A DNA stretch of 64,000 bases from the NCBI RefSeq assembly GCF_013488225.1, contig NZ_CP041240.1, positions 310,001 through 374,000 of the forward strand, read 5' to 3'. Each line of letters starts with the position of its first letter. Within the stretch, counting starts at the first letter, position 1. This document shows, in pieces, positions 1,192 to 23,921 of the stretch. The notes under the pieces are model-generated. The model searched no databases. It was not told where the DNA came from and worked only from the letters and a program-made list of their open reading frames with translations. The DNA comes from Sinorhizobium mexicanum (GTDB taxonomy: Bacteria; Pseudomonadota; Alphaproteobacteria; Rhizobiales; Rhizobiaceae). The translations under genes and the position numbers were made by a program.

Positions 1192-1231
1192 CAAGATCAT
1201 GCTACGGCGCAGGCGGAAGAGAGAAGTACAG

Positions 1232-5536: not shown

Positions 5537-5590
5537 GGAACGGTTCTCCCGGTGTCTGGTCGAAGACACCGTCTTGTGGCCTGCGTTCTG

Positions 5591-6796
5591 TCAAAAGACC
5601 TGCCGGCCTTCTTTCCAGACTCTTCGGACAAGCGGCATGTCGTTGATCCCGGTGATGTGGCAGAGATCGGCTCGGCTGCCGATTTTGATCGCACCTCTGT
5701 CGGCAAGGCCGGCGGCCGAGGCTGGGACTGAACTGACGGTAGAGATCGCCTGTGGCAAGCTCATGCCGACCGGATCTCTCGTCAGCTGAAAAGCCGCATG
5801 CAGGAGGCTTGCCGGAACGTAATCCGAGGCGAGGATATCGAGATGTCCTGTTGTCGCCAAATCCCGGGCGCTTACGTTTCCCGAATGCGAGTTGCCGCGA
5901 ACGACGTTGGGTGCGCCCATCAGGACACGAACGCCGAGCGAATGCGCCGTTTCCGCCGCAGGCCGCGTCGTCGGAAACTCGGAGATCAGCACACCGGCAG
6001 ATTTCGCCTCTCGAACATGCTCGGCTGTTTCATCATCGTGGCTGGCGATCGGTAGTCGTCGAGCACGGGCAAGCGCGACGATCCGGGCCTGATTTTGAGG
6101 TCCGATCGTTCGGGACGCGTCCATCCATGCTTCGATACGGCGATCGGCATCCTCTTCCGACCAGCCGTACTGCGTGATCTGCATCTGGCGGAAACGGTCG
6201 AGTTGCCGCGACTGGCGATGACCGGGGGCGTGATCCATCACCGAGACGAGCTTCACAAGCGGATCGTCCACCAACGGCGTGAATCGGGCCAGAACGTCCT
6301 CGTCCGTCACCTCACAGCGCAGATGCAGAAGATGGTCTGCTCGAAGCACGCCATGGTCTTGGGCTTTATGGATACCATCGACGAGGATGGGCAGAATGCG
6401 AGCGCGATCGTCTTGCTTTCTGTGATCGCGGGTCATTGACCCGATACAAAGGGAATCGAAAACCGTCGTAACGCCGGCTGCGGTCATCACGGCATCATGC
6501 GTTACGACAGCGGATAGCGGATTCCAAACCACGCCGGCCCGCGGCAGAGCATGCTTCTCCAGATTGTCGGTATGAAGATCGATGAGGCCCGGGATCAGAT
6601 AGCCTCCGTCGAGATCGATCGCACCCGGCACCTTGCTCCTCCCCGGAGCGATGTCATTGATGCAGCCGTCAACGACATGGACGGTTCCTTCGTAAACCTC
6701 GTCCAGAAGCACGAGCCTTGCGCCGCTCAAGGTCAGCTCGTTGTTGATGGAGCGTTTGACCGCCACACCGCACGATGAAGTGTCAGTTCCGAACAT
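5591..6796 (-). CDS. phnM: PhnM, alpha-D-ribose 1-methylphosphonate 5-triphosphate diphosphatase
   Basis: The protein (401 residues) is an amidohydrolase-superfamily enzyme with the PhnM-typical metal-binding segment GLIDLHTDNLEKH, later metal ligands in SVMDHAPGH and ASHDDET, and ASDYVP near the C terminus. It removes pyrophosphate from the phosphonate-ribose triphosphate before PhnJ cleaves the C-P bond. The ATG directly follows the phnK stop codon. The first 15 or so residues extend beyond the usual start, so an internal start is possible. PhnM placed between phnK and phnL is an uncommon order. Confidence 0.93.
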   Translation of the reverse strand: MFGTDTSSCGVAVKRSINNELTLSGARLVLLDEVYEGTVHVVDGCINDIAPGRSKVPGAIDLDGGYLIPGLIDLHTDNLEKHALPRAGVVWNPLSAVVTHDAVMTAAGVTTVFDSLCIGSMTRDHRKQDDRARILPILVDGIHKAQDHGVLRADHLLHLRCEVTDEDVLARFTPLVDDPLVKLVSVMDHAPGHRQSRQLDRFRQMQITQYGWSEEDADRRIEAWMDASRTIGPQNQARIVALARARRLPIASHDDETAEHVREAKSAGVLISEFPTTRPAAETAHSLGVRVLMGAPNVVRGNSHSGNVSARDLATTGHLDILASDYVPASLLHAAFQLTRDPVGMSLPQAISTVSSVPASAAGLADRGAIKIGSRADLCHITGINDMPLVRRVWKEGRQVF

Positions 6797-7594
6797 CTAA
6801 AGCACCGATGATACGAGAAGTTGGGTGTAGGCGTGATGCGGATCATCCAGGACCTGGTCTGCCAGACCGGTCTCCACAATGTTGCCCCGCCACATGACGA
6901 TGATGCGGTCCGCCAATAGCCGGGCAACGGAAAGATCATGGGTGACGATCACCGCGGAAATCGCAAAATCTTGGACCAACTGTCGCAGCAGATCCAACAG
7001 CCGGGCCTGGACCGAGACATCGAGGCCGCCGGTCGGCTCATCCATGAAGACGAGGCGCGGTTTGGTGACGAGAATTCTGGCGATCTGCAGACGTTGCTGC
7101 ATGCCGCCGGAAAAGGTTCTCGGGTGGTGATCGATGCGCCGCAGGTCAATCTCGACCCGGGCCAGCCAATTCTGAGCCTCTTCGCGTATGCGGCCATAGT
7201 GCCGGGCACCGATGGCCATCGGTCGCTCGCCTATGTTGCCTCCCGCGCTGACTTCCATTCTAAGGCCATCGCGCGGGTTCTGGTGCACAAGTCCCCAGTC
7301 GGTACGCATCAGCTTGCGTCGTTCTGGCTCTGACAAGGTCAGAATATCCGTGGGCCCCTTGTCATTGAGGTCGTAAACCACCGAGCCTGTGTCCGGCATC
7401 AACCCTCCCGAAAGGCAGTTGAGCATCGTCGACTTACCGGATCCGGATTCGCCAACGATGGCGATGATCTCCCCTGGAAAGAGGTCGAAGGAAATGTTCT
7501 GGCAGCCGATCGTCTTTCCATAGCCCTTCGTAAGATTTTGCACGGAAAGCAGTGGTTGCCGGCGACTGGGTTGGACCTGGATTGCAGTTCTCAT
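6797..7594 (-). CDS. phnK: PhnK, ABC-type ATPase bound to the C-P lyase core
   Basis: This 265-residue ABC ATPase shows Walker [12 protein letters not shown], signature TFSGGMQQRLQIARI and Walker B LVFMDEPTGGLD. PhnK docks on the PhnGHIJ core complex and is needed for phosphonate use in vivo. It follows phnJ by 14 bases and is directly followed by phnM, consistent with one transcript. The sequence GLVHQNPRDGLRMEVSAGGN is typical of PhnK rather than of transport ATPases. Confidence 0.93.
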   Translation of the reverse strand: MRTAIQVQPSRRQPLLSVQNLTKGYGKTIGCQNISFDLFPGEIIAIVGESGSGKSTMLNCLSGGLMPDTGSVVYDLNDKGPTDILTLSEPERRKLMRTDWGLVHQNPRDGLRMEVSAGGNIGERPMAIGARHYGRIREEAQNWLARVEIDLRRIDHHPRTFSGGMQQRLQIARILVTKPRLVFMDEPTGGLDVSVQARLLDLLRQLVQDFAISAVIVTHDLSVARLLADRIIVMWRGNIVETGLADQVLDDPHHAYTQLLVSSVL

Positions 7595-7608: not shown

Positions 7609-8538
7609 CTATTCGGTTTTCGAGTTCGGGAGCGAACCAAAGGGAGCCCGACCTTCACCCTCCGGTCCAACGTGACCTTGGTCTCGACGCGTTGCGCAGT
7701 AGTCGGTGTCAGAGCAAACGAACATTCGTTGCCCGCTGTCATTCACGACGATCTCGTCGAGGTAACTGTCACTTGCCCCACAAAGCGAGCAACAGTGCCT
7801 CCATTTCTGCACCCGGAACGGATGGTCTTCAAAGTCGAGGTTCTGCACTCGCGTGTAGGGCGGGACGGCATAGATCCGCTTTTCGCGGCCCGCGCCGTAA
7901 AGCTGGATCGCCGGACTGTTCGCGATCTTTGGATTGTCGAATTTGGGAATAGGCGACGGCGACATCAGATAGCGCCCGTGGGTCATCACCGGATAGCTGT
8001 GAGCCGTGGCAATATGGCCGAAGCGTGCAATGTCTTCGTAAAGCTGGACGCTCATTAACCCATATTCTGCATAGGCATGCATCTTCCGCGTCTCAGATTC
8101 CCTCGGCTCCAGACTGCGCAATGGTTCCGGCGACGGGACCTGGTATACGATGACTTGACCCGCTCTGAGAGGGGTTTCGGGGACGCGATGACGGGTCTGA
8201 ATGATTGTGGCCGCATCGGTTTTTTCGGTCGTCTCGATTCCAGCCACGCGCTTGAAAAATCGGCGGATCGAGACCGCGTTCGTGGCGTCGTCCGCACCCT
8301 GGTCGATCACCTTGAGCGTGTCGTTGGGTCCGATGACACTGGCCGTCACTTGTATACCGCCGGTGCCCCATCCGTAGGCGAGCGGCATTTCGCGGCTGCC
8401 AAACGGAACCTGCAGGCCGGGAACGGCCATCGCTTTCAAGATGCATCGGCGGATCATCCGTTTGGACTGCTCGTCGAGATAGGCAAAGTTGTAGGCTTGG
8501 CGGCCACGCTTGGCCGCATTTTCATGCGCGTCGATCAT
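7609..8538 (-). CDS. phnJ: PhnJ, radical-SAM C-P lyase
   Basis: The catalytic subunit (309 residues) uses a [4Fe-4S] cluster and SAM to cleave the carbon-phosphorus bond of ribose 1-alkylphosphonate 5-phosphate, giving a cyclic ribose phosphate and an alkane. Its unusual cluster motif is present: CSLCGAS (C-x2-C) followed by FVCSDTDYC (C-x5-C) in the C-terminal third. Its start overlaps the phnI stop (ATGA). The length and all the cysteines expected for the family are intact, so the lyase itself should be functional. Confidence 0.95.
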   Translation of the reverse strand: MIDAHENAAKRGRQAYNFAYLDEQSKRMIRRCILKAMAVPGLQVPFGSREMPLAYGWGTGGIQVTASVIGPNDTLKVIDQGADDATNAVSIRRFFKRVAGIETTEKTDAATIIQTRHRVPETPLRAGQVIVYQVPSPEPLRSLEPRESETRKMHAYAEYGLMSVQLYEDIARFGHIATAHSYPVMTHGRYLMSPSPIPKFDNPKIANSPAIQLYGAGREKRIYAVPPYTRVQNLDFEDHPFRVQKWRHCCSLCGASDSYLDEIVVNDSGQRMFVCSDTDYCATRRDQGHVGPEGEGRAPFGSLPNSKTE

Positions 8539-9641
8539 TCCGCCGCCTCCTTCGTTGACGGGCTGCCGACCTGCTCCTCGCGCAGCTGTCGTATGAACTG
8601 CAGGTCACCCTGAAAATCAACGTAGTGAGGCAAGGTCAGATGTGAAACGAACCCAGCCGCCTCGAGATTGTCGGTATGAGAAAGAACGAACTCTTCGTCC
8701 TGTGCGGGGTATTTCACATCCTCGCCATATTCACGGGACCGCAATGAGCGATCGACGATCGCCATTCCCATCGCCTTCCGCTCACTCTTTCCAAAGGAGA
8801 GCCCGTAGCCCCGCGTGAAGCGTGCCGGCTCGTCGTCCGAGCCTGCAAACAAGTCAAGCATCTGGCATTCGGTGACGGTGATGTCTCCAATCGAAACTGG
8901 AAAGCCCAGTTCCTCGGGAACCACTTCGATCGCGACGTCTCCGACCCGGGTTTCGCCGACATAGGGATGGGCTGCGCCATAGCCACGCAGAGCGGAATAA
9001 GCCAACCCCACGACAAATCCCTCATCGCCACGGGCAAGATTTTGCAAACGCTGATCGCGACCGGCCGGCAATGCCAGGGGCTCTCGCGTCAGATCGAAAA
9101 CCGACGCTTTGCCAGGCGCAGGCACTTCTGCCTCGATCAGACCTTCATCGGAGATGCTATCGAAAGCACGTGGACAATTGGCATCGAGCGGGGTCGCAGC
9201 CAGTTCCGCCCTTGTCACCTCGGCATCAGCGTTGTCGAGGAGGTCGAAATCAAGCAGTCTATGCGTGTATTCGTAGGTCGAACCGAGGACCTGTCCCCCA
9301 GGAACGTCCTTGAAGGTTGCGGAGATCCGTCGCTGGATGGCCATCCGATCCGTCTCGATCGCATTCGACACTGCGAAGCGCGGTAAGGTCGTACGAAACG
9401 CCCGGAGGAGGAAGATCGCCTCGACTGCGTCGCCCTGGGCCTGCTTTAATGCCAAGGCCGCAAGCTCTCTATCGTAGACAGAGCCCTCGCACATCACGCG
9501 GTCGACGGCGAGACCGAGTTGCTCGGCGATCTGAGAAACGGTAAGTTCGGGAACTTCAGGATCGCCGCGTCTATCCTCTGCGATCAAACGGTGCGAGTTG
9601 AGGATAGCCTGCTCGCCGCCTTTTACAGCCACATAGGCCAT
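8535..9641 (-). CDS. phnI: PhnI, C-P lyase core subunit (nucleosidase)
   Basis: The 368-residue protein begins MAYVAVKGGEQAILNSH, the typical PhnI start, and contains RGYGLSFGKSERKAM and the C-terminal SHTDNLEAAGFVSHLTLPHYVDFQ segment of the family. PhnI catalyses the displacement of adenine from ATP by phosphonate, with PhnG, PhnH and PhnL. The ATG directly follows the phnH stop codon, and the 3' end overlaps phnJ by 4 bases. Confidence 0.95.
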   Translation of the reverse strand: MAYVAVKGGEQAILNSHRLIAEDRRGDPEVPELTVSQIAEQLGLAVDRVMCEGSVYDRELAALALKQAQGDAVEAIFLLRAFRTTLPRFAVSNAIETDRMAIQRRISATFKDVPGGQVLGSTYEYTHRLLDFDLLDNADAEVTRAELAATPLDANCPRAFDSISDEGLIEAEVPAPGKASVFDLTREPLALPAGRDQRLQNLARGDEGFVVGLAYSALRGYGAAHPYVGETRVGDVAIEVVPEELGFPVSIGDITVTECQMLDLFAGSDDEPARFTRGYGLSFGKSERKAMGMAIVDRSLRSREYGEDVKYPAQDEEFVLSHTDNLEAAGFVSHLTLPHYVDFQGDLQFIRQLREEQVGSPSTKEAAE

Positions 9642-10247
9642 TTAGATCTCCACCGATATGCTGCGGGGAAGAGCAATGATTGCTTTTCCGGAGGTAAAGA
9701 GGACATCGACCCCGATCGGATAAAGCTCCTGATTGAGCTGCCACTCTTCCCAAAACCACGACGGAAGCCCTTCGATGGTGGCCGAAACCTCGTGCTGGAT
9801 CCCTGGCCCTTGCCATCGAACCGAGGGACCATCCGTAAAGGAGGGCACCTGGACAACAATGGTCGTCGAAGTCTGGGGCTCCAACTCAGTTCCGAGGCGA
9901 AACCCTGCTAGGCGTGGCATCGTCGTCGAATCGGCCACGATGGCAAATGCTGCTTCGTCCGCGCCATTGGCGAACGGCGTCCCGCAGTGAAACCCAAGGT
10001 AATTACGGACGTCGCCACGATTAGATCGGGAATCGAGCCAGACCGGCGTTTCGAAGTCTGCCAATGTGAGGCAAGCGGAGACGGTCGCCGGCGCGAGCGG
10101 CCCAACTGCCGTAGCTACAGAGCCAAGCGTTTGCGGGCGGCCCACATAAGCATAGGCATCCAGAATACGGCGGAACGTGTCTTGGCTGTCGAAAACGGGA
10201 TTTGTGAATCCGGGCTTGATCCCGGCAGTGTCCATACCGCTGTTCAT
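9642..10247 (-). CDS. phnH: PhnH, C-P lyase core subunit
   Basis: This 201-residue protein matches PhnH in length and pattern: SQDTFRRILDAYAYVGRP near the start, then PLAPATVSACLTLADFETPVW, and GLPSWFWEEWQ near the end. PhnH is part of the PhnGHIJ complex and has a PLP-transferase-like fold without cofactor. The start overlaps the phnG stop by 4 bases (ATGA), suggesting coupled translation. Confidence 0.92.
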   Translation of the reverse strand: MNSGMDTAGIKPGFTNPVFDSQDTFRRILDAYAYVGRPQTLGSVATAVGPLAPATVSACLTLADFETPVWLDSRSNRGDVRNYLGFHCGTPFANGADEAAFAIVADSTTMPRLAGFRLGTELEPQTSTTIVVQVPSFTDGPSVRWQGPGIQHEVSATIEGLPSWFWEEWQLNQELYPIGVDVLFTSGKAIIALPRSISVEI

Positions 10248-10705
10248 TCCGGGCTCGTGCCTCGCGCCATTGCAAAAAAGTCGACCTTTGTGGAAGCCGC
10301 CTTGCGGCTCTTCAGCTCACGCCGTCTCGCTTGCATCGCTTCAAATTGAGCGACCAATTCGCGACTCTCGGCCGCGACCTCGTCCGCCCGCTGCAGGAGC
10401 GCATCGAAGACTGCCGCCAGTTCCGCATGGCGCTGGTCGCGTCCGAGCACGAAGGCGAACCCCGTCGTGCCCTCGGTTAGCCTCAGGGCACATCGGGTCA
10501 TCGTGACCTCACCGAGGTTGAACGCACCGCCGGTACCGCCTGCGCGTCCACGCACCAGCACGAGGCCGGTTTCGGGTCGACGCAGCCATTCATATTGAGG
10601 AGCGATGGGCAGATCGTTCCACGCACGCTCAAGGTCATCACACTTGGTTCGCGCCAGAACCGCCATCCATCGCCGTCTGTTTTCAATTTGATTGCGCACT
10701 TGCAT
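10244..10705 (-). CDS. phnG: PhnG, C-P lyase core subunit
   Basis: PhnG (153 residues) is the first gene of the C-P lyase operon. The start MQVRNQIENRRRW at 10705 fits the family (RRxWMAVLA follows); a longer frame upstream would run over the palindromic operator and was rejected. The segment PETGLVLVRGRAGGTGGAFNLGE followed by TRCALRL is characteristic. PhnG works with PhnH, PhnI and PhnL to attach phosphonate to ATP-derived ribose. A palindrome at 10748-10769 is 42 bases upstream and is the likely PhnF binding site. Confidence 0.92.
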   Translation of the reverse strand: MQVRNQIENRRRWMAVLARTKCDDLERAWNDLPIAPQYEWLRRPETGLVLVRGRAGGTGGAFNLGEVTMTRCALRLTEGTTGFAFVLGRDQRHAELAAVFDALLQRADEVAAESRELVAQFEAMQARRRELKSRKAASTKVDFFAMARGTSPE

Positions 10706-10747: not shown

Positions 10748-10769
10748 GATACCTAGATGTCTAGGTATC
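10748..10769. promoter_or_regulatory. Palindromic operator in front of phnG (candidate PhnF site)
   Basis: The two 10-base arms GATACCTAGA and TCTAGGTATC are perfect inverted repeats around a central TG. Its right 17 bases (CTAGATGTCTAGGTATC) occur again upstream of the ABC-transporter operon at 18446-18462. Its position just upstream of phnG and the phnF-like regulator gene nearby make a repressor-binding role likely. Confidence 0.75.
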
Positions 10770-10904
10770 TGCTTTTTGCAACACTTTGATGACAAGAGCC
10801 TGGTTCAGCAGAAAAGTGTTAGTCGGAGCAACAGAAGGAAATGGCCGGCGCTGGTAGGCTGAACCCGCGAATGAAGCTCCCTTCCCGTTCGCCAGCAATC
10901 TCGT

Positions 10905-11606
10905 TTAGTCATCGCCTTCTATCAGGTATTCATATCTGTCGGCTCGTATGACGCCGAAGGCGTATTTGATCGGTAGTCCATCCGGAGCCACATCGACATT
11001 TGTCTCGAAGAGCACCGGGCTGGACGATGATATTCGCAACAGACGGGCCTCTTGCTGGGTGGGCCTTCGGGCGGTAATCCGCGTCCATTTTCGCTTGTAT
11101 TCCGGAATGCCACAGCGCTTCAGGGCCGCAGTTGGAGAGTTCAGCCCTTCGAACGCTGTGGCGAGACCAGGAACTCGCTCGACCGGAAAATAGGCCGTAC
11201 CGGTCGCCAGCGGCCAGTCGTTGATGAACGAAGTCGTCCTGACGGCGGTAACGAGCGCCGAGGGCGCGATCTTCAAATGCGTCGCAATATCCGGCTCGAC
11301 AGAGATCTCGTTGATCGACAATATCTCCCGCTTGACCGACTTGTTCTGGCCAAGAAGTTTGAACGTGAATTTCGGATCGCTGTCCAAGGTGTGCGAAATG
11401 AAATCGTCGGCAACGAAGGTACCGACACCGTGTTGCACCCGCAGAGCTCCTTCAGACTCCAAGACCTTGATGGCGTTTCGCACGGTGTGGCGATTGACGC
11501 CAAATCGTTCTGCCAAGACCAGGTCGCCAGGCAGGCGACCGTTCTCGAAGGCTCCTGCACGGATATCACCGAGTATTCCGGAGCGAACCACTTCCCAACG
11601 TTTCAT
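10905..11606 (-). CDS. phnF: PhnF-like GntR/HutC-family transcriptional regulator
   Basis: The 233-residue protein has an N-terminal winged helix (LAERFGVNRHTVRNAIKVLESEGALRVQHGVGTFV, about residues 29-67) and a C-terminal UTRA ligand-binding domain ending in FGVIRADRYEYLIE. PhnF-type regulators repress phosphonate genes until an effector is present. ATG 11606 is used because MKRWEVVRSGI is the usual family start; the longer upstream frame overlaps the hydrolase gene. It lies 64 bases behind the hydrolase gene and is probably the last gene of the transporter operon. The palindromes at 10748 and 18446 are its likely targets. Confidence 0.88.
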   Translation of the reverse strand: MKRWEVVRSGILGDIRAGAFENGRLPGDLVLAERFGVNRHTVRNAIKVLESEGALRVQHGVGTFVADDFISHTLDSDPKFTFKLLGQNKSVKREILSINEISVEPDIATHLKIAPSALVTAVRTTSFINDWPLATGTAYFPVERVPGLATAFEGLNSPTAALKRCGIPEYKRKWTRITARRPTQQEARLLRISSSSPVLFETNVDVAPDGLPIKYAFGVIRADRYEYLIEGDD

Positions 11607-11670
11607 TAAGCACCACTTCAACTGCCGATACGACCATTGCATCCCCCAAAATGGGTGCAGGAAACCCTGT

Positions 11671-12900
11671 TTACCCGAAAAGCGGCCGATCGGGAAACAT
11701 CTCTGTGGGTAGCCCAAGGATGGATGCGAGCGTCGGCGCAAGGCGTGTGGCTTCAGCTCCTTCCGCCACCGCACTTGGCAGACCGGCCCCGGACATAATG
11801 CAGATACGATCGTCCGCACTCATACCTGGTCGAAATCCATGGGTGGCTTTGTATTTCGGTCGACCGAACGGTTGGTCTGCCGGATGCCCGGCTGGCACTG
11901 CTTCGAAATCATGCTGCGGCGGAGCCACGAAAGTGGCAATGCGCTCGCGCAGCCCGACCGGCAAATGTGCATCGTTCCAGGGTTCCGCCCCCACGGCGGC
12001 GAGCCTTCGCGTAACTTCCGCACGATCGGCATCGTTGTCGACCAGGACGTGCAGCGTCGCACCCTCAGTGCAAAACGTTTTTCCGGGAATCACCAGCTCG
12101 GGCAGGATCGAGGTGGTGATGTTACCGTGACCGTGATCGCTGGTAACTGCAATCACGTAGTCATCGAGCCGGCCGGATCGGCGCAAGGCGTCCAAGCAAA
12201 GACCGACGAGAGAGTCGGCAAACGCAATAGAGAAATGGGCCTCTTCGCTCTCGTAACCGAACTCATGCTGGAACATGTCTGGGACATTGATTTCGGTCAC
12301 GACCAGATCAGGGGGCTCTTTTGAACCGATGAGCCTTGCGGCAGCGGAGACGGTCAGTTGGTCGTCGATGAGCGTCGCGGTGACCCGAGAGACCATATCC
12401 GGCCTTGCGGACTCCTGAACGAAAGACGGTAGGGGAACCCCTGCCAAGCGACCGCGCGGATCCTTGACTCTCAGGAGGTAGGGGGCAGTGCCGTCGCTCG
12501 GAACCTTGGTGAAGCCGGGGCCGCGCATCCAACTGGGCGGAACATAGACGGAGGTATCTTCCGGGTCGATGAGAGCATGCCCGACGCAGGCCACGTCCAG
12601 GCCCGCGCGTGAAGCAAAGGTTGCAATTGTCGGCACAAGAAGATGCTCCACCTCGGCCGCGATGAATGCTCCGTCGATCAGAACGCGATTACCAAAAACC
12701 CCGTGCCTGTCTGCATCGACACCTGTGAGGATGGAAGCCCGACCCGGCATGGAGGTCGCCGGTACGGCGGAACGCATCCGGCGAACGCGATATCCGCTGT
12801 CGGCCAGAGCAGATAAATTCGGGAGCCTCTCCCGATGGTTCTCAAGATAGTCCGAGTTCACGCCGTCGATCATGATCAACAGGAGTTTACGACGCTTCAT
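11671..12900 (-). CDS. Alkaline phosphatase superfamily hydrolase (phosphodiesterase / phosphonoacetate hydrolase-like)
   Basis: The 409-residue protein has the superfamily's metal-binding pattern: LLLIMIDGVNSDYL at the N terminus, the nucleophile region VPATSMPGRASILTG near residue 45-60, and TSDHGHGN in the second half, followed by a late GHPAD/KATHGF histidine region. Such enzymes hydrolyse phosphomonoesters, phosphodiesters or phosphonates with two zinc or manganese ions. No signal peptide is visible, so it should act in the cytoplasm on imported substrate. It sits 7 bases behind the oligopeptide-type transport ATPase gene and in front of phnF. The exact substrate is unknown. Confidence 0.8.
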   Translation of the reverse strand: MKRRKLLLIMIDGVNSDYLENHRERLPNLSALADSGYRVRRMRSAVPATSMPGRASILTGVDADRHGVFGNRVLIDGAFIAAEVEHLLVPTIATFASRAGLDVACVGHALIDPEDTSVYVPPSWMRGPGFTKVPSDGTAPYLLRVKDPRGRLAGVPLPSFVQESARPDMVSRVTATLIDDQLTVSAAARLIGSKEPPDLVVTEINVPDMFQHEFGYESEEAHFSIAFADSLVGLCLDALRRSGRLDDYVIAVTSDHGHGNITTSILPELVIPGKTFCTEGATLHVLVDNDADRAEVTRRLAAVGAEPWNDAHLPVGLRERIATFVAPPQHDFEAVPAGHPADQPFGRPKYKATHGFRPGMSADDRICIMSGAGLPSAVAEGAEATRLAPTLASILGLPTEMFPDRPLFG

Positions 12901-12907
12901 TTCAATC

Positions 12908-13954
12908 TCACCCCTTCAAATCGAAAGATTTTTGTTTGATGCAGGCCGTCCAGTGCCCTGGCGCAACCTGGCGCAGTGCCGGTGAAGCCGCTGCACATTC
13001 CGGGCTTGCAATCGGGCACCTGGTTCGAAAGACGCAGCCGGACGGCGGTGACACGGCACTCGGAACTTCGCCTTTCAGAACCACCCGGTTTCGTCGAAAC
13101 TTTGGATGCTCGACCGGCAGAGCGGCCAGCAGCGCTTCGGTGTAGGGATGCGCAGGCCCATCCCAGAACATTGCCGAAGGGGCGATCTCCATGATCCGAC
13201 CGAGATACATGACGATCACCCGATCGGCGACGTGGCTGACCACGCGCAGATCATGCGAGATAAAAAGCATCGTCAGTGACAGCTTGTCCTTCAGATCCAG
13301 GAGCAAGTTGATGATCTGCGCCTGAACCGAAACATCGAGAGCCGAAACGGGCTCATCGGCGACGATGAACTCCGGCTCGGTCGACAGTGCTCTGGCGATG
13401 GCGATCCGCTGGCGTTGACCGCCGCTGAAGCTGTGCGGGTAGCGCACGGCATGCGTCGGGGAAATTCCGACCCGTGAAAGGAGCTCTGCCACGCGCTCGA
13501 GCCGTGCTCGCGGGGTCAGATGGGCATGATGGATCGACAGCGGTTCACCGACGATTTCACCGACGGTCATGCGTGGGTTGAGGCTGCTGTAGGGATCCTG
13601 GAACACCATCTGCATATGCCGACGAAAAGAACGCGTTTCCCTTGGCGTCAAGGTCGTCAGATCGACCCCTTTGAAGCGAACCCGACCGGAACTAGGACCG
13701 GTCAACCGCAGCAAGCTGCGCCCCAATGTCGTCTTGCCTGAACCGGATTCGCCGACCAGAGCGACGATCTCGCCTGGAAATATTGAAAACGATGCTCCGT
13801 CGACGGCTTTAATGAATCTCTTGGAACGGAACGGCGATATGCTGCGGAGTGGCAGGTGCACGCGAACGTCCTCAACTTCAATCAGAGATGGGCTACTGAA
13901 CGGCGGGATCGCACCCCCACTGGGTGTGCCGAAATGGGCAAAGGAGGGATTCAT
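12908..13954 (-). CDS. Oligopeptide/dipeptide-type ABC transporter ATPase (OppF/DppF-like)
   Basis: This 348-residue ATPase has Walker A GESGSGKTTLG, signature SFSGGQRQRIAIARAL and Walker B FIVADEPVSALDVS. It also has the C-terminal extension of OppF-type proteins with the Cys-rich segment GCVFRTRCPIASPEC, which in the family can carry an Fe-S cluster. It pairs with the OppD-like ATPase whose stop it overlaps by 4 bases (ATGA). The pair powers the permeases at 16.6-18.4 kb. Confidence 0.92.
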   Translation of the reverse strand: MNPSFAHFGTPSGGAIPPFSSPSLIEVEDVRVHLPLRSISPFRSKRFIKAVDGASFSIFPGEIVALVGESGSGKTTLGRSLLRLTGPSSGRVRFKGVDLTTLTPRETRSFRRHMQMVFQDPYSSLNPRMTVGEIVGEPLSIHHAHLTPRARLERVAELLSRVGISPTHAVRYPHSFSGGQRQRIAIARALSTEPEFIVADEPVSALDVSVQAQIINLLLDLKDKLSLTMLFISHDLRVVSHVADRVIVMYLGRIMEIAPSAMFWDGPAHPYTEALLAALPVEHPKFRRNRVVLKGEVPSAVSPPSGCVFRTRCPIASPECAAASPALRQVAPGHWTACIKQKSFDLKG

Positions 13955-14967
13955 GCTGCAACCTCCGGCTCCGCAGCCGCGGCGATTTCACGCCAACGCG
14001 AACAACGAACGCTGTGGCCGTCAGCCATGTCGAGTTCCGGCATCTTGCGAGCGCAGTCCGCCACTGCGTGGCTGCAGCGCGGGCGGAAGGAACAGCCGGT
14101 CGCCAGATGAGCAAGTTCCGGAGGGCTGCCGGGGATGGCGGAAAGCCGCCGCGGAAATGCGCGGCCAGGCTGCAATTGCGGCCGCGCTTTCAGGAGACCG
14201 CGCGTGTAGGGCATCCATGGCGTGTCGAAGATCTGCATGACATTGCCCTCCTCGACAATCCGGCCGGCATACATCACCACGACCCGATCGGCGATTTCGG
14301 CAACGACACTGAGGTCATGCGTGATGAACAGCATGGCCATGCCGGTCTCCTGCTGTAGTTCGTGTAGAAGGGCAAGGATTTGCGATTGGACCGTGGCATC
14401 GAGGGCCGTCGTCGGCTCGTCGGCGATCAGCAATTTCGGACGACATGACAGCGCGATCGCGATCATTGCCCGCTGGCGCATACCGCCGGAAAGTTGATGC
14501 GGATAATCATCGAGGCGCCGCTCGGCATCGGCGATACCGACCCGATCGAGCAGTTCTCTGGCTTGGCGTCGAGCTTCGCGAGGAGTGCATCGTTGATGGG
14601 CCCGCAGAACCTCGGTCAATTGGTTGCCAATCGTGTAGACCGGATTGAGCGCTGACGCGGGCTCCTGAAAGATCATAGCGATGTCGTTGCCAAGAATGCC
14701 GCGCAGACGTCGCGCCGGAATTTGGAGAAGGTCCTCCCCTTGATAGAGGACCTTCCCCGCAACAATCCGGCCCAGTGACTTCGGAATGAGGTTCAGGATG
14801 GAAAACGCGGTTGCCGATTTGCCTGAGCCGGATTCTCCGACAAGGCAGACCGTACTTCCTTGCCGAACCGAGAACGAGACCCCTTCAACTGCTTTGACAG
14901 TTCGATCGTGGGCATGAAAATGGGTGCGCAAATTCTCGACGCGCAGGAGTTCGGCATCGTTCATCAT
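13951..14967 (-). CDS. Oligopeptide/dipeptide-type ABC transporter ATPase (OppD/DppD-like)
   Basis: The 338-residue ATPase has Walker [12 protein letters not shown], signature [15 protein letters not shown], Walker [13 protein letters not shown] and the C-terminal [15 protein letters not shown] segment typical of OppD. The start is one of two adjacent ATGs (14967 or 14964). An in-frame extension further upstream runs into the binding-protein gene and was rejected. Gene order permease-permease-binding protein-OppD-OppF is that of a complete peptide-type importer. Confidence 0.92.
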
Positions 14968-15002
14968 AAAACCGTCCTGGTAGCTGAGCGGAACAGTGAC
15001 CT

Positions 15003-16514
15003 TCACTTGAAGTGAATGTTGTCCGGCCGGAAATCCATCGTGTAGTCGGTGTTCGGCAGCCACTGGATGGTGGTCCGAACCCCGTAGAATTCCGGCGCAC
15101 GATAGAGGTACGTACCGGGCGCTTCGTCCTCGAAGATATCGATCATCTTTTGATAGATGTCGTAGCGACGTTTGGTATCGAGCGTGGTCTCGCCTTCTTT
15201 GGCGAGTTCGACGAAGCGCTCCTGGTCTTTCCAAAAACGCTTCGCCCAGGTCATGTAAAGCGTGACCGCGGGGTCGGTCGGCACGACCCAGTCAGACGCG
15301 TTCCTCACGGTGAGGGCCGGGTCCTCCTTTTTGAGCTTCGTCCAGCCTTCGTCGACACGAACGCTGGCATTGACGCCGATCGCTTTCCACATCTGAACGA
15401 CAGCTTCCGCGACTGCAACGCCATTCGTGTAGTAGACCGGGTGAGTTACGAATTGGATCGGCTCCCCCTTGTAGCTCGATTGCGAGAGCAACTGGCGCGC
15501 GCGGTCGGGATCGAAGGCCGGAGTTGGCCGATCGGGATTATAGAGTTCCGGTCCCCAGGCCTCGTATTGGGCGGAGTGCGGCAGCGTAGCCTTGCCATCC
15601 CACAGGGTGTCGACAAGCAGCTGGCGATCGACCGACAGATTGAGTGCCTGCCGCAGTTTCTTGTCGGCCATCACCGGGTTGAAGGTGTTGTAGATAAGGA
15701 AGTGATGGTTCATCAACGCGCTGCGGAGGTCGCAACAACCCAGGTTCTTTACCGCTTCCAATTGATCCGGCGGCAGGCTGTTGATGACATCGACCTCACC
15801 GTTCGCGAGCGCAGTGATCCTCGCAGAAACCTCCGGGATGGCCTTGAAGGTCAAGCTCGAGATTGTCGGCCGACCGCGAAAGTAGGAGTCGTTGGCCTTC
15901 AGTTCCATGCTCTCGTCAGGCTGGAGCTTGACGAAAGCGAACGGACCCGTCCCGACCGGCTTTTGGCCGAAGCCGCTCTCTCCCACCGACTCGAAATAGG
16001 CTTTCGGCACGATATCGCTCGAATGATAGGCAAGCAGGTGTAGCAGTATCGGGCTCGGAGCTGTCGTGGTAATCCGGACAGTCAGATCATCGACGATGTC
16101 GACGCGTTCGATCACCTTGAGGAGATTCTTGGCAAAGACGTAGTCCGACTCCGGATTCAAGATTCGATCAAAGGTGAATTTGACATCAGCACTGGTAAAG
16201 GGCTGACCGTTGTGAAACCGCACATCCGGCCGCAGCGAGAATTCCATGGTACGATCGTCGATCCGCTTCCAGCTTTGTGCTAGGCCGGGAACAAGCTCAT
16301 AAGCTGTCCGATCCTTGCTTTTGGAAAAGTCCCGCGCAACGAGCGTGTCGAACATATTGTATGTCATTGGGAAGTCGACATTGCCAAGTGCCAATGCGGG
16401 ATCGAAGTTTGCGCGGACCGCGTTGACGCCGACAGTGAGGGGGGGTCTTGTGTCTTCCTGCGCGACCGCGAAGGTCGGCAGTAGCATAGCGACCGCTACG
16501 AGTAGGTTTCGCAT
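15003..16514 (-). CDS. ABC transporter substrate-binding protein, family 5
   Basis: The 503-residue protein starts with a signal peptide (MRNLLVAVAMLLPTFAVA, cleavage expected before QED) and has the SBP family 5 hallmarks: VPGLAQSW, FSLRPDVRFHNGQPFTSADV and GTGPFAFVKLQPDESMEL. It should bind its ligand in the periplasm and hand it to the permease pair. Family 5 proteins bind peptides but also opines, glycerol derivatives and other solutes, so the ligand is open. Its place in an operon with phnF and a phosphate-ester hydrolase suggests a phosphorus-containing solute. Confidence 0.9.
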   Translation of the reverse strand: MRNLLVAVAMLLPTFAVAQEDTRPPLTVGVNAVRANFDPALALGNVDFPMTYNMFDTLVARDFSKSKDRTAYELVPGLAQSWKRIDDRTMEFSLRPDVRFHNGQPFTSADVKFTFDRILNPESDYVFAKNLLKVIERVDIVDDLTVRITTTAPSPILLHLLAYHSSDIVPKAYFESVGESGFGQKPVGTGPFAFVKLQPDESMELKANDSYFRGRPTISSLTFKAIPEVSARITALANGEVDVINSLPPDQLEAVKNLGCCDLRSALMNHHFLIYNTFNPVMADKKLRQALNLSVDRQLLVDTLWDGKATLPHSAQYEAWGPELYNPDRPTPAFDPDRARQLLSQSSYKGEPIQFVTHPVYYTNGVAVAEAVVQMWKAIGVNASVRVDEGWTKLKKEDPALTVRNASDWVVPTDPAVTLYMTWAKRFWKDQERFVELAKEGETTLDTKRRYDIYQKMIDIFEDEAPGTYLYRAPEFYGVRTTIQWLPNTDYTMDFRPDNIHFK

Positions 16515-16576
16515 AGTGTCTCCTAAGGTTGGAGTTGTTGAGTTTTCCTGCAGGAAGCGTTTGAGAGGGGCGCGAT

Positions 16577-17482
16577 TTAGCTGCGGCTCCGGGGATCGAA
16601 CGTGTCGCGCAGCCAATCGCCGATCATCGATGCCGCCAGCGTTATTGCGACGATGACGAGACAGGGAAATACCGCCAGCCAGGGTGTGGTGATCAGGTAG
16701 TTCCTTGACTCGCCAAGCAACGAGCCGAGAGAAACATTTGGCGGCTGGATACCGACTCCAAGGAACGTGAGCGACGACTCCAGAACGACAATCTCGGCGA
16801 AGCTCAGGCTGGCCAATACGATGACGGGCGACAACGTGTTGGGAAGCACATGACGCATCGCGATATGGTAAGGGGAAGCGCCGGAGGATCGAGCCGCCTC
16901 TACGAAACTGCGTCCGCGCAGAGCTTGCACTTGGCCCCGGACAACCCGAGCATATTTATAGTAATCCGCGAACCCGACGATCAGCACCAAGACAAGCGGA
17001 CTCGGGCCGATGAGGGCGACCGCAGTCAACGCCACCAATGTGACCGGCACCGAAGCCTGCGCATCGACCACAGCCATGAAGCAATGGTCGATCCATCCTC
17101 CCATGCTTCCCGAGACTAGCCCACTGAGCGTGCCAGTGATGACGCCTACGAGAACTCCGGCACCGGCGATAAGCAAGGTGGTCTGGGTTGCGAACAGAAG
17201 CCGAGAAAAAAGATCTCGGCCGAGATGATCCGTTCCAAGGAGGTATTCGGTCGTACCCCCCGCGAACGCCGGCGGCCGAAGCCGGTGTAAAAGGCTCTGA
17301 CCGGCGAGATCATGCGGTGCGATCACCGGCGCGGCAGCGGCCAACAACGCTGCCAACATAAGAATGAGGCACGAGGCGATCGCCACTGTCGGCGGCCGAC
17401 GCCTTCCGGTATTGGTGGCGAAGAGGCCCTCTTCGGTTTGGGAAGCGCTCACTCCCGGCGCGCTGGTCTCGATGCTCATCAC
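16577..17482 (-). CDS. ABC transporter permease (OppC/DppC-like)
   Basis: The 301-residue inner-membrane protein has an N-terminal anchor helix after a charged leader (ASCLILMLAALLAAAAPV) and then GTDHLGRDLFSRLLF, the OppC_N signature, and the EAA loop EAARSSGASPYHIAMRHVLPN near residue 200. It forms a heterodimeric channel with the DppB-like protein, whose stop codon its start overlaps by 4 bases. Confidence 0.92.
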   Translation of the reverse strand: MMSIETSAPGVSASQTEEGLFATNTGRRRPPTVAIASCLILMLAALLAAAAPVIAPHDLAGQSLLHRLRPPAFAGGTTEYLLGTDHLGRDLFSRLLFATQTTLLIAGAGVLVGVITGTLSGLVSGSMGGWIDHCFMAVVDAQASVPVTLVALTAVALIGPSPLVLVLIVGFADYYKYARVVRGQVQALRGRSFVEAARSSGASPYHIAMRHVLPNTLSPVIVLASLSFAEIVVLESSLTFLGVGIQPPNVSLGSLLGESRNYLITTPWLAVFPCLVIVAITLAASMIGDWLRDTFDPRSRS

Positions 17483-18393
17483 GACCTCCCGCGCACCCGC
17501 GGATCGAGCAAGCCGTAACCCACGTCAACGAGAAGATTGGTCAAGATTATTGCTGCCGAAAATACGAGAATTCCGAATTGCAGCATCGCGAAATCGCGTT
17601 GCATGACCGCATCGATCACGAGGCGTCCTGCTCCAGGCCAGGCAAACACAGATTCCGTCACCACCGCGCCGGCGATCAGTCCGCCAAGTTGCAGGCCCAG
17701 AATGGTCAACACCGGGAGGATTGCATTTCTCAGCCCGTGCTTCACCACAACACGGAACGGACTCAAGCCTTTGCTGCACGCATAGCGTATGTAGTCCTGA
17801 GACAGGACCTCCAGCATGCTGCTGCGAACGAGCCTTGCAATGTTGGCGCAGGTCGCAAGAGCAAGGGTAATTGCAGGCAGGACCAGATGTTTCCACGTGC
17901 CCATGCCGCCGCTCGGCAGTAGTTTCAGGGAGAAGCTGAAGATCAGAATGGCGGCAATGCCGACAACGAAGTTCGGAATGGCTTGCCCCGCGATTGTTGC
18001 GGTCGTGAGGGAGCGATCAAAGACCGTGTTGTGATGTAGTGCGGCCCAGAGGCCGGCAGCCATGCCGATGATCATCGACAACACGAAAGCTGGAATGGTC
18101 AGGAGGAGCGTATTGGGAATGCGTTCCACGAAGAGTTCGACCACGGACCGGTTCGAAAAGAAGCTCTGCCCGAAATCGCCGCGCAGGAGTGCGGCGCCGT
18201 ACCGCACATATTGCGTCGCCACATCTTCATCCAGTCCGAGCCTTGCCCTCAGCTCAACGCGTTGTTCCTCGGGCAGGTCAGGCGGAATGAGGAAGGACGT
18301 GGGATCTCCAGTCATTCGTGTCGCAAAAAACACGATGGTGAGGATCGCCCAAAGCGTGAACACGCTACGCAAGCCTCGCGAGATGAAAAACAT
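17479..18393 (-). CDS. ABC transporter permease (OppB/DppB-like)
   Basis: This 304-residue permease begins MFFISRGLRSVFTLWAILTI with the first membrane segment, followed by the GDPTSFL motif and a C-terminal EAA loop (DYIRYACSKGLSPFRVVVKHGLRN). ATG 18393 was chosen because GGAGGAGAG precedes it by 5 bases. It is the first gene of the transporter-hydrolase-phnF operon. A copy of the phnG operator lies about 50 bases upstream at 18446-18462. Confidence 0.92.
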   Translation of the reverse strand: MFFISRGLRSVFTLWAILTIVFFATRMTGDPTSFLIPPDLPEEQRVELRARLGLDEDVATQYVRYGAALLRGDFGQSFFSNRSVVELFVERIPNTLLLTIPAFVLSMIIGMAAGLWAALHHNTVFDRSLTTATIAGQAIPNFVVGIAAILIFSFSLKLLPSGGMGTWKHLVLPAITLALATCANIARLVRSSMLEVLSQDYIRYACSKGLSPFRVVVKHGLRNAILPVLTILGLQLGGLIAGAVVTESVFAWPGAGRLVIDAVMQRDFAMLQFGILVFSAAIILTNLLVDVGYGLLDPRVRGRS

Positions 18394-18445
18394 TAACTCT
18401 CCTCCACCCAAAGCAAGAAGTCGAAACAGCTCCTACGCATGCGAT

Positions 18446-18462
18446 CTAGATGTCTAGGTATC
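18446..18462. promoter_or_regulatory. Second copy of the phn operator, in front of the transporter operon
   Basis: The 17 bases CTAGATGTCTAGGTATC are identical to the right part of the perfect palindrome in front of phnG (10753-10769). The central 12 bases CTAGATGTCTAG are the symmetric core; the outer left arm differs here. It lies 53 bases upstream of the first permease gene. Confidence 0.75.
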
Positions 18463-18792
18463 TCTCGAAGTAAGGCGTGCATGTTACGCTTTGATGACAT
18501 TCGCGACAAAAGTGTCGGATAATCTCTCAACGTTTGTAATGTTTGCGACGAATTCACACCGAACACAGGCAGCGAGAGCGCAAGGCGGGCGCACAGATGA
18601 TTTTCCGGACCCAATCGCTTACGTCGAATTGCCGCTGCACCTGATCCGATTGGGTTACGATTTTCCGCGTGCCGGACGGCTCGTTGATCGGTTCGACGAG
18701 GTGAGGCGGAATGCTTCCTTTCCTTTCGGGGCAATGCCTTTCATGCTGCGGCGCGGCCCTCGTGGACGAGGTAGCAAAGAGCGATGTTCGCC

Positions 18793-19697: not shown

Positions 19698-19797
19698 ACT
19701 CTACACATGATCATCGCCAGACAGACCAAAAAGGAAATGGAAGCCGGAACCCTCTTCTGAGGGTGTGGCGTATGCGCGAAAACTGGGGGAGAACAAC

Positions 19798-22376: not shown

Positions 22377-23285
22377 CTAGTTCCGGGCTCCAATCATCTG
22401 AATGCAGCCATCTCCGAACCAAAATCGCGCGAGCGGATGGTCGTAGTGTAGGTACAGGGGTGCAAGGAAACGTCGAAGGTTCTCGAATCCTTTCGTGTAT
22501 CGTGACACTCGCCGAATATCGATAAATCCGTTTTCGGCGTACCAATTGCGAATTTGTTGCTCGGTGAAAGCGAATTCGTGATAGGTGGGGGCCTGGAAGC
22601 GGTCACGAAGCGTGACGAACAGGTCATCATCAAACAGGCTTCGAAAGAAACCATCCTCTCCTTTAAGGAATGGAGGTTCGTTCTGACTCTTAACAGCCAA
22701 CAACCAGTCAAGCGCTTCTTTTGCCGTTCGGCCATCCAGATTGTCGATCGCCTGCCGGAACTGAGCGTCGGAAGCATACAGTTCACGAAGATGGTTGATG
22801 CAGCGATAGAAGATCCCGTTTCCGGTTCCGATGATGGTGATAAACAAATGCCCACCCGGCCGTGTCACCCTCGCCAGTTCGTCGAACCCTTTGCGCGGAT
22901 TCGCAGTGTGGGGCAGGACACCCGCGCAGTGCACGAAGTCGAAACTTCCATCTCCGAATGGCAAGTTCAGAACGCTCCCACCGATCAATTCCGATTTCCT
23001 GCCGAATTTCGAAAGGCGTCGAGCGGCACAATCCATCCACTCCTCCCCGAGCTCAAGCGAGGTGACCTTGGCGGCACCTTTTTCGAGAAAAGCATAGGAT
23101 GCATTCGCGTTCGAACCACAGCCGGCGTCCAGGACATTGAGTCCCGCGAAGCCTCCCGGATTGAACCCGAAGTATTCTTCATCGATTAGCGAGACCAATC
23201 GGGTGAAGATATGTTCGTTATTCTCCTGCTCTCGTTGATAGCGATCGAAGACTGCACGTGTTTCACTTTCGAAAGCCGTGTCCAT
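22377..23285 (-). CDS. SAM-dependent methyltransferase, copy 1
   Basis: This 302-residue methyltransferase has motif I NVLDAGCGSNANASYAFL, an acidic residue in SLELGEEW, and motif VHCAGVLPHTANPRKGFDE. It is clearly paralogous to the product of 26731-27657: motif I, the RFQAPTYHEF and RYTKGFENLRRF segments and the C-terminal RFWFGDG are shared. The two differ enough to expect different acceptors or successive methylations. GAGGGAGAAG precedes the ATG. It lies 21 bases behind the CDP-alcohol phosphotransferase gene, in one probable operon. Confidence 0.85.
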   Translation of the reverse strand: MDTAFESETRAVFDRYQREQENNEHIFTRLVSLIDEEYFGFNPGGFAGLNVLDAGCGSNANASYAFLEKGAAKVTSLELGEEWMDCAARRLSKFGRKSELIGGSVLNLPFGDGSFDFVHCAGVLPHTANPRKGFDELARVTRPGGHLFITIIGTGNGIFYRCINHLRELYASDAQFRQAIDNLDGRTAKEALDWLLAVKSQNEPPFLKGEDGFFRSLFDDDLFVTLRDRFQAPTYHEFAFTEQQIRNWYAENGFIDIRRVSRYTKGFENLRRFLAPLYLHYDHPLARFWFGDGCIQMIGARN

Positions 23286-23306: not shown

Positions 23307-23921
23307 TCAGGACCCGAATTCGTCCGTCAACAAAGCGATCAAACCGACCGCCGCGAGTGCGAGGTGGGTCAGGCGTAGCGCATTGCCGGTGCCCGGAAAT
23401 TTGAAGGTTGAAAGATGCAGCACCGTCAGAAGAAACGCCGCCCCAATCAACAACGTGCCAAGGGTCTGGGCCGGCAAGTACCGTTTGGTGGCAAAAAGAA
23501 GCGCCAATACGAAGGGGTCGGTGTTCAACGGGAGACCTCTGGTGAATCCGTCAGCGTCGAGGCCGATCGTTTTTAAGTAGCTGAGACGGAAAGCCCCAGA
23601 CACGACAAGGCAGATCGCGGCTGACAACGCGGCAACCGAGAACGCGTTGAAAGATAAAATCAGAACCGCTGGAAAGACGGCCAAGTTCACCAGATCTGCT
23701 AGCCCGTCGAATAAACTCCCAACCTGCGCCGTGAATGCTGATCGATTGGCGGAACTGTTGGCGACCATACCATCAGCGTGATCGGCCAAAAGAGCGCATA
23801 ACGCGAAACAAATGCCAACTTCGAAGCGTCCGACCAAAGCAAAATAGATGGCTGTCACGGCGAAGGTCAGCCCGAGAGCGGTAATGGCATTCGCAGCATC
23901 AAAGAGATAACGGATCATCAT
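23307..23921 (-). CDS. CDP-alcohol phosphotransferase family membrane protein
   Basis: The 204-residue protein is strongly hydrophobic, with several transmembrane segments. It carries a reduced form of the CDP-alcohol phosphotransferase motif, LLADHADGMVA...GSLFDGLADLVN, in which the D-x2-DG-x2-A ... G-x3-D-x3-D spacing is readable. Such enzymes move the phospho-alcohol part of a CDP-alcohol, with release of CMP, onto an acceptor at the membrane. The start is one of two adjacent ATGs (23921 or 23918) behind GGGAG. A frameshifted homologue is at 2031-2190. Confidence 0.8.
   Translation of the reverse strand: MMIRYLFDAANAITALGLTFAVTAIYFALVGRFEVGICFALCALLADHADGMVANSSANRSAFTAQVGSLFDGLADLVNLAVFPAVLILSFNAFSVAALSAAICLVVSGAFRLSYLKTIGLDADGFTRGLPLNTDPFVLALLFATKRYLPAQTLGTLLIGAAFLLTVLHLSTFKFPGTGNALRLTHLALAAVGLIALLTDEFGS

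Follow-up and report, generated by a model that had tools for sequence, protein, structure and literature searches.

A probable PhnF regulon joining C-P lyase to an AccA-like importer beside phosphonate biosynthesis genes in Sinorhizobium mexicanum

Results

A probable PhnF regulon of two operons

Two operons in a 64,000-nucleotide stretch of Sinorhizobium mexicanum DNA (contig NZ_CP041240.1, positions 310,001 to 374,000; hereafter the window), one encoding carbon-phosphorus (C-P) lyase and the other an ATP-binding cassette (ABC) importer, carry the same dyad just before their first genes, phnG and dppB. On the strength of its conservation we consider it very likely that both operons, together termed the cassette, belong to a single regulon of the GntR-type regulator PhnF.

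The site before phnG is a 22-bp dyad whose 10-bp arms, GATACCTAGA and TCTAGGTATC, are perfect inverted repeats on either side of TG. The original prediction had called it a perfect 22-base palindrome, which is accurate for the arms and not for the asymmetric centre: 20 of the 22 positions are symmetric, and the palindrome is not gapless. Its right 17 bases, CTAGATGTCTAGGTATC, do recur exactly before the first permease gene, as had been claimed (10753-10769 and 18446-18462). Compared with the dyad, the dppB site matches at 19 of 22 positions, the right arm being complete and the left arm reduced to TCTAGA. The sites lie 42 bases (phnG) and 47 bases (dppB, in the 22-bp frame from 18441) from the respective ATG. 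The dyad also contains ACCTAGAC, a half-match to the HutC consensus GTMTAKAC (PMC4494728) that is set within the longer 22-bp arrangement.

When up to three mismatches were allowed, the 17-base motif occurred on average 0.05 times (maximum 1) in 100 shuffles, and a scan of the whole genome (7.14 Mb, four contigs) returned only the two sites plus the first site on the opposite strand. A reversed control pattern matched six times in the same scan, so loose matches alone would mean little. Likewise, an identical 17-base direct repeat was present in 3 of 20 shuffled windows, which makes the repeat by itself only moderately unlikely and leaves position and conservation to decide. The sole other repeated 17-mer in the window (23104 and 27479) lies inside the related methyltransferase genes MT2 and MT3 (61% identical) and reflects duplication.

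All cassette genes are on the minus strand. The importer operon comprises, in this order, dppB, dppC, binding protein, two ATPases, phosphodiesterase and phnF, no gap exceeding 64 bp. The 199 bp that separate phnF from phnG carry the first dyad, with phnF as the gene next upstream of it. In the C-P lyase operon, phnG, H, I, J, K, M, L and a DUF1045 gene follow one another at distances no greater than 21 bp; its seven phn genes, phnG to phnM, are all open frames. That a GntR-type phnF closes the transporter operon was confirmed by the GntR and UTRA domains of its product (Pfam) and by a TIGR02325 score of 182.6 bits against a cut-off of 156.8.

Eight cassettes of this kind (type A) were compared: the window's own and those of S. 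chiapasense (L004), Rhizobium gallicum (L005), Microvirga VF16 (L006), S. meliloti M270 (L007), S. meliloti 4H41 (L041), Mesorhizobium loti CJ3sym (L042) and S. fredii CCBAU 83666 (L076). The operator was present at the phnG and dppB promoters of all eight (16 of 16 sites) with 18 to 22 of 22 positions matching, its positions being conserved while the flanking sequence of the 16 promoters diverges. Across the sites the arm GATACCTAGA is invariant at nine of ten positions and the other arm is looser. An exact search for the 16-base core GATACCTAGACATCTR covered 394 genomes of one family, taken to be Rhizobiaceae because G341 carries the same contig as S. meliloti 4H41, and gave four places. Two of them are in G000 (S. 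mexicanum) and two in G341, all at phnG and dppB promoters; these are also the sole two genomes among the 394 with a close binding protein. The proposed search of related genomes thus recovered both sites in every type A cassette, and the motif, rather than being common away from phosphonate genes, was private to cassette promoters. A partial copy left out of the comparison lies on a second S. chiapasense plasmid (NZ_CP133150.1, 1-9050), where most of the cassette is duplicated at 93.8% identity up to the start of the record.

The S. mexicanum genome holds three C-P lyase operons in all. The dyad motif was not found at the other two (C1:3909819-3913518 and C4:386645-390516) in the whole-genome scan with up to three mismatches, which argues that the PhnF circuit is private to the cassette; the PhnF proteins of these two operons are 33% identical to that of the window. 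A second kind of cassette (type B: M. erdmanii, P. sophorae and a second Microvirga copy) resembles type A in importer, phosphodiesterase and C-P lyase. Neither phnF nor the operator was found in the type B cassettes, which ties the site to this PhnF. Their binding proteins are 30-33% and their phosphodiesterases 46-47% identical, and phnM has moved ahead of phnG (L043, L044, L045). A second phnF (78% in L042, 74% in L007) adjoins the methyltransferase gene MT1 in M. loti CJ3sym, S. fredii and S. meliloti M270; no additional site with 15 or more matches was found at these three loci.

In all 16 promoters a direct repeat resembling the PHO-box consensus begins 26-42 bp upstream of the operator. 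A pattern for it, written after both window sites had been seen, matches nowhere else in the 64-kb window. Through these repeats the phnG and dppB promoters may also be under PhoB control.

An importer and a phosphodiesterase probably suited to a phosphorus ester

The importer had been described as oligopeptide-type. By Pfam and NCBIfam it does fall into the Dpp/Opp/Nik superfamily, and by its binding protein it is instead of the opine (AccA) kind: the closest solved relative is AccA (E 2e-86), followed by DppA (4e-34). In a tree of 32 rows the eight type A binding proteins formed one group (100/100), sister to those of the nodule isolates M. mediterraneum and P. zundukense (99/99), and fell inside the AccA-like set, apart from E. 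coli DppA, NikA and OppA (99/99 branch); E. coli OppA and NikA are long branches and the deeper order is unsure. Tree and residue table drew on 10 of the 30 returned loci besides the window's own, chosen to span the ranking.

Among the AccA ligand contacts named by El Sahili et al. 2015 (PMC4526662), those to the phosphate and the anomeric hydroxyl (OH1), namely N54, N284, Y375, Y376 and S419, are kept in eight of eight type A proteins, compared with two of five in E. coli DppA and one of five each in NikA and OppA. Most other AccA-like rows likewise have N54, Y375, Y376 and S419, so these four point to a phosphorus ester in general. Further residues of the pyranose site (Y145, W178, M372, W423, T430, E434, E510) are mostly changed, only T430 being kept, which indicates an AccA-like protein and not an agrocinopine receptor. 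On the basis of these residues the imported compound is likely to be a phosphorus ester, whose other moiety would differ from the pyranose of agrocinopine.

The phosphodiesterase encoded in the importer operon is of the nucleotide pyrophosphatase/phosphodiesterase (NPP) type by sequence, and the 50 matches listed for its structural model are entries of this type, ENPP6 among them. All 11 aligned phosphodiesterases share D12, S50, D208, H212, D255, H256 and H354. S50 aligns with the threonine in the LTFPNH stretch of the Xac enzyme, the nucleophile of that enzyme. No signal peptide was recognised in the N-terminus as judged by eye, so the enzyme should act after import, as AccF does (PMC7356202).

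Linkage to phosphonate biosynthesis genes

Around the cassette lie genes for making a phosphonate (Table 1). A phosphoenolpyruvate (PEP) mutase gene just outside the window precedes genes for an aminotransferase and a cytidylyltransferase, and the cassette is flanked by a cytidine diphosphate (CDP)-alcohol transferase-like gene, three S-adenosylmethionine (SAM) methyltransferase genes and asnB, with nif genes nearby. The CDP-alcohol transferase of S. chiapasense scored 25 bits (cut-off 22), and the window open reading frame had no Pfam match at E 1e-5. PEP mutase, aminotransferase, cytidylyltransferase, MT1, CDP-alcohol transferase and an asparagine-synthase-type gene were found near seven of the eight cassettes (the last two genes diverged in M270), so that at gene level the catabolic cassette is linked to synthesis genes in 7 of 8 type A cases. 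M. loti CJ3sym has the genes for PEP mutase, aminotransferase, cytidylyltransferase and CDP-alcohol transferase in a single row with MT2 and asnB. PEP mutase was above cut-off in 8 of the 10 records searched and nifH in 7 of 10, two of the records (G341 and G394) being one genome. The cassette and the adjoining locus may degrade and make the same compound.

Several other genes accompany the locus. A TauE/SafE-type permease, which could be an exporter, and a GntR-type regulator (names from S. chiapasense) precede the PEP mutase (L008:16824-18730), and genes for a cytochrome P450, an NTF2-like protein and a short-chain dehydrogenase/reductase lie near it behind a paired sigma-54/NifA-type promoter in most related loci mapped (L008:10574-14612). 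At window 19765-22068, genes for a manno-octulosonate cytidylyltransferase and a sialidase-family protein are shared with the S. chiapasense locus and not with the other three plasmid loci compared. In M. erdmanii a PEP mutase of a second kind, accompanied by an aminotransferase of its own, is encoded about 0.7 kb upstream of nifH and in the same orientation (L068:3050-6749, G396:C13).

In family-wide searches, where the best three to six candidates in each of the 394 genomes were scored and counts are lower bounds at the E limits applied, an AccA-like protein was present in at least 79 genomes (at least 97 places), PEP mutase in at least 19 (at least 26 places), nifH in at least 22 and the cassette-type phosphodiesterase in at least 5. 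A contig scan with two short peptide patterns of the phosphodiesterase returned six loci in five genomes and is no census. In 7 of the 19 PEP-mutase genomes an AccA-like gene lay within 25 kb of the PEP mutase gene, compared with 0.14 expected from random placement, and four of the five phosphodiesterase genomes had nifH, the same four having PEP mutase (Fisher 3.6e-5 and 1.9e-5); these statistics were chosen after the pattern had been seen and treat related genomes as independent. In the fifth, G327 (36% identical), neither nifH nor PEP mutase was found.

The linkage takes several forms. G064 combines the biosynthesis row with genes for a type B importer, a DeoR regulator, a CobD-like protein and the phosphodiesterase, and no phn gene was found within 38 kb; in G373 the importer is much diverged, the phosphodiesterase is 38% identical and phnM is present as fragments. 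A plasmid locus of M. mediterraneum R31 (L078:6762-21120) encodes an AccA-like importer, a phosphodiesterase, a DeoR regulator and a class III aminotransferase together with a cytidylyltransferase, a CDP-alcohol transferase, a GHMP kinase and an enzyme of class I/II aminotransferase fold, and neither PEP mutase nor a phn gene is annotated in the 31-kb stretch. For the S. fredii fold relative of this last enzyme the best score was to CobD, below cut-off. The M. mediterraneum locus is likely, judging from its gene content, a phosphate-diester twin of the phosphonate cassette. Such varied neighbourhoods indicate that the pairing of importer and ester-making pathway is broader than phosphonates and broader than nodules.

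Expression in nodules

We equate CJ3sym with the symbiosis island of M. loti R7A, given matching promoter sequences and gene order. For R7A, lacZ activities in nodules were reported as 827.1 (pepM), 2455.8 (aatA), 861.7 (asnB) and 319.8 (methyltransferase msi321) Miller units, compared with 7.7, 16.2, 22.0 and 11.7 in a nifA2 mutant and with less than 20 in broth for pepM, aatA and asnB (PMC3538637). The mutants were fully effective, the genes being dispensable for fixation, and where the authors discuss pepM, aatA and asnB they draw no connection to a phosphonate product (PMC3538637). Fragments of nifH with a NifA-type promoter lie upstream of MT1 in CJ3sym (L066:7289-7454) and match the nifH fragment published before msi321 in R7A (PMC3538637).

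In the window a -24/-12 type promoter with a TGT-N10-ACA element 88 bp upstream precedes the CDP-alcohol transferase gene. The CJ3sym PEP mutase gene has such a promoter (CGGCACGCGCCTTGCT), its TGT-N10-ACA element lying 82 bp upstream, and that of M. erdmanii has the -24/-12 element alone. A 100-kb region contained 10 such pairs at eight promoters, compared with a mean of 0.7 (maximum 3) in 40 resampled sequences. At the cassette promoters themselves no paired element was found, and NifA/sigma-54 control of them was rejected. Bean bacteroids are reported to be phosphate-limited and to raise their phosphonate-use genes (PMC6421345), which fits the PHO boxes at the cassette promoters. In M. huakuii a phnG, perhaps of another type, is listed as down in bacteroids (PMC3973600).

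Table 1. Positions of the cassette, its proposed control sites and linked genes (window coordinates unless a record is named)
Feature	Position	Strand	Remark
Proposed PhnF operator of phnG	10748..10769	.	dyad GATACCTAGA-TG-TCTAGGTATC, before phnG
Proposed PhnF operator of dppB	18441..18462	.	GCGATCTAGATGTCTAGGTATC; one full arm, partial second arm
PHO-box-like repeat	10777..10794	-	TGTCATCAAAGTGTTGCA; upstream of phnG operator; similar box in 8/8 phnG promoters
PHO-box-like repeat	18482..18499	-	TGTCATCAAAGCGTAACA; upstream of dppB operator; similar box in 8/8 dppB promoters
Importer permease 1, DppB type	17479..18393	-	Pfam/NCBIfam
Importer permease 2, DppC type	16577..17482	-	Pfam/NCBIfam
Periplasmic binding protein	15003..16514	-	AccA-like (agrocinopine receptor clade)
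Importer ATPase 1	13951..14967	-	
Importer ATPase 2	12908..13954	-	
Phosphodiesterase	11671..12900	-	nucleotide pyrophosphatase kind
phnF	10905..11606	-	GntR/UTRA-type regulator, last gene of importer operon
phnG	10244..10705	-	
phnH	9642..10247	-	
phnI	8535..9641	-	name from annotated S. chiapasense counterpart
phnJ	7609..8538	-	
phnK	6797..7594	-	
phnM	5591..6796	-	
phnL	4799..5569	-	
DUF1045 phosphonate-operon protein	4083..4808	-	TIGR03223
PEP mutase	C3:309092-309898		just outside window; over cut-off; holds EDKAFPKRNS
Aspartate-type aminotransferase	1..1191	+	biosynthesis
Phosphocholine-type cytidylyltransferase	1199..2008	+	biosynthesis
SAM methyltransferase MT1	2458..3246	-	biosynthesis-linked
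SAM methyltransferase MT2	22377..23285	-	biosynthesis-linked
CDP-alcohol phosphatidyltransferase-like gene	23307..23960	-	annotated so in S. chiapasense (100% identical)
-24/-12 type promoter	24125..24140	-	TGGCATAGCTCTTGCG; before CDP-alcohol transferase
asnB-type glutamine amidotransferase/synthetase	24806..26632	-	
SAM methyltransferase MT3	26731..27714	-	61% identical to MT2
Second phnF beside MT1	L042:3082-3780, L076:14440-15132, L007:4701-5429		

Discussion

The sites, operon order, conservation, protein families and linkage described above are read directly from the sequences, and from them we infer PhnF and PhoB binding, promoter positions, substrate, product and ecological role as follows. 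PhnF would repress from the dyads just before its own operon and phnG and would be released when a phosphonate, or a product of its cleavage, binds the UTRA domain, while PhoB, acting at the PHO boxes, would switch on both promoters when phosphate is short. The AccA-type binding protein would capture a phosphonate ester, the ABC transporter would bring it in, the cytoplasmic phosphodiesterase would cut the P-O-C ester and PhnGHIJKLM would break the C-P bond to yield phosphate and carbon. In the adjoining locus, PEP mutase would form phosphonopyruvate and the aminotransferase phosphonoalanine; the cytidylyltransferase would provide a cytidine monophosphate (CMP)-activated phosphonate, the CDP-alcohol transferase may join the phosphonate to an alcohol, and methylation and amidation may follow. 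If the product of this locus is the ester that the cassette imports, and if the locus is nodule-expressed and NifA-dependent as published for M. loti, the arrangement would amount to a rhizopine- or opine-type economy in which a phosphonate ester is the private compound, made in nodules and reclaimed by kin. We slightly favour this combination of a doubly controlled private PhnF regulon and a rhizopine-type phosphonate-ester economy as the whole explanation. That the imported compound is the neighbouring locus's own product, serving as a rhizopine, is to us an evenly balanced proposition, and it is the best single account of both linkage and nodule expression. Our literature search, which left most subscription journals outside its reach, found no publication joining a nodule PEP mutase with a phosphonate opine.

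Several observations weigh against this explanation. Just 7 of the 97 AccA-like places are near PEP mutase, and the 1.4-Mb Microvirga plasmid has the cassette without a close PEP mutase, only two more distant, below-cut-off PEP mutases having been found there, far from the cassette. Importer and PEP mutase are paired in genomes without nifH (G344, G351, G380, G070), so nodules are not the only setting; among 10 genomes with a closer PEP mutase only 5 have nifH, and the P. sophorae type B cassette occurs without nifH over cut-off. In M. mediterraneum, P. zundukense and G064, importer and phosphodiesterase are present without C-P lyase in the stretches seen. The model of the phosphodiesterase is of only moderate confidence (mean predicted local distance difference test score, pLDDT, 67.6). 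The window PEP mutase promoter, like those of four of the six relatives examined, lacks a NifA/sigma-54 element. In their treatment of the R7A genes the authors likewise saw no NifA promoter at pepM, aatA and asnB and considered direct activation highly unlikely (PMC3538637).

Some of these observations would also suit plain scavenging, in which PhnF and PhoB co-regulate C-P lyase and an importer of phosphonates or phosphate esters from soil or plants and the biosynthesis locus is a mere neighbour on a densely packed symbiosis element. C-P lyase accepts broad substrates, the PHO boxes suit general phosphate hunger, 90 of the 97 AccA-like places are not near PEP mutase and the Microvirga cassette does without one. 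We nevertheless regard scavenging as rather unlikely, because the linkage of importer and PEP mutase is seen again in G064, G373, G344, G351 and G380, where importer, gene order and regulator vary, and occurs in seven genomes where random placement predicts 0.14, and because the sister importer of M. mediterraneum likewise adjoins a cytidylyltransferase and a CDP-alcohol transferase. These last enzymes classically make phospholipids, and the locus might thus make a phosphonolipid or phosphonoglycan whose water-soluble head group is recycled by the cassette. The S. fredii CDP-alcohol transferase is weakly like PssA (45.7 bits, cut-off 107) and ENPP6, a glycerophosphocholine diesterase, is among the listed matches of the phosphodiesterase model; yet an AccA-type receptor suits small soluble opine-like esters, and the annotation of the stretches compared from four relatives includes no glycerolipid acyltransferase, although no dedicated search for one was made. 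Such salvage seems to us unlikely, and somewhat more so than scavenging.

An ordinary peptide importer, perhaps for phosphonopeptides and co-regulated by chance, would agree with the Dpp/Opp/Nik membership of all subunits. It is made very unlikely by a binding protein that falls with AccA, away from DppA and OppA, and by a seven-gene operon that has a phosphodiesterase and no peptidase. We give marginally less credence still to a toxin of the agrocin kind as the product, with the importer serving as a Trojan-horse or immunity route: AccA does also import agrocin 84 (PMC4526662), but here the importer lies within the producer's own locus with a complete C-P lyase gene set for using the compound as food. 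As for the dyad itself, it comes after phnF and folds as a 9-bp stem, as a transcription terminator might. No T run follows it in the direction of the gene, however, and we rejected the terminator after folding and inspection; the second copy precedes a first gene and lacks part of one arm. Neither copy was found elsewhere in the genome, and both positions are conserved while flanks diverge. That the dyad is a terminator or mobile repeat instead of an operator is, in our view, barely credible.

The phosphonate-ester economy that we favour would give a testable role to the nodule-expressed M. loti pepM, aatA and asnB genes, which are not needed for fixation, and the cassette offers two candidate PhnF operators whose regulator is named, a receptor for which the structure of a relative is available and an enzyme amenable to assay. 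If true, it would extend the opine/rhizopine idea to organophosphorus compounds, with phosphorus, besides carbon and nitrogen, being privatised in symbiosis as a currency that competitors cannot spend. The compound would perhaps be the first rhizopine or opine with a C-P bond, and it would belong to a larger group of bacterial phospho-ester opines in which phosphodiesters under DeoR (M. mediterraneum) and phosphonates under PhnF form separate branches; we advance this suggestion tentatively and with slightly less than even confidence.

Among known systems, the acc operon of tumour-inducing (Ti) plasmids (AccR, AccA-E, AccF; agrocinopines) resembles the cassette in its AccA-clade SBP_bac_5 receptor, two permeases, two ATPases, a phosphodiesterase within the operon and a plasmid location. 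It differs in having a DeoR-type regulator where the cassette has PhnF and a GdpD-type phosphodiesterase where the cassette enzyme is NPP-type, whereas the cassette has C-P lyase attached and a receptor with changed sugar-side contacts (one of seven kept). Agrocinopine is made by plant transfer DNA (T-DNA) genes, whereas the proposed ester of the cassette would be made by adjacent bacterial genes. The mos/moc rhizopine system combines synthesis in nodules with matched catabolism on the same symbiosis element, an arrangement that the cassette and its neighbouring locus may share. Its rhizopine is L-3-O-methyl-scyllo-inosamine (PMC3538637), whereas the compound of the cassette is predicted to hold a C-P bond, its catabolism being under PhnF and probably phosphate control. 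With the phn C-P lyase operons of E. coli and S. meliloti the cassette has phnFGHIJKLM content and a PHO-box-like repeat in common, but in place of the phnCDE importer it has an opine-type importer and a phosphodiesterase. Finally, the adjoining locus is like PepM phosphonate clusters in its PEP mutase with EDKAFPKRNS, aminotransferase and cytidylyltransferase, and unlike them in that phosphonopyruvate decarboxylase is not named in the annotated stretches of relatives, while a CDP-alcohol transferase and asnB are present and the locus is joined to C-P lyase genes.

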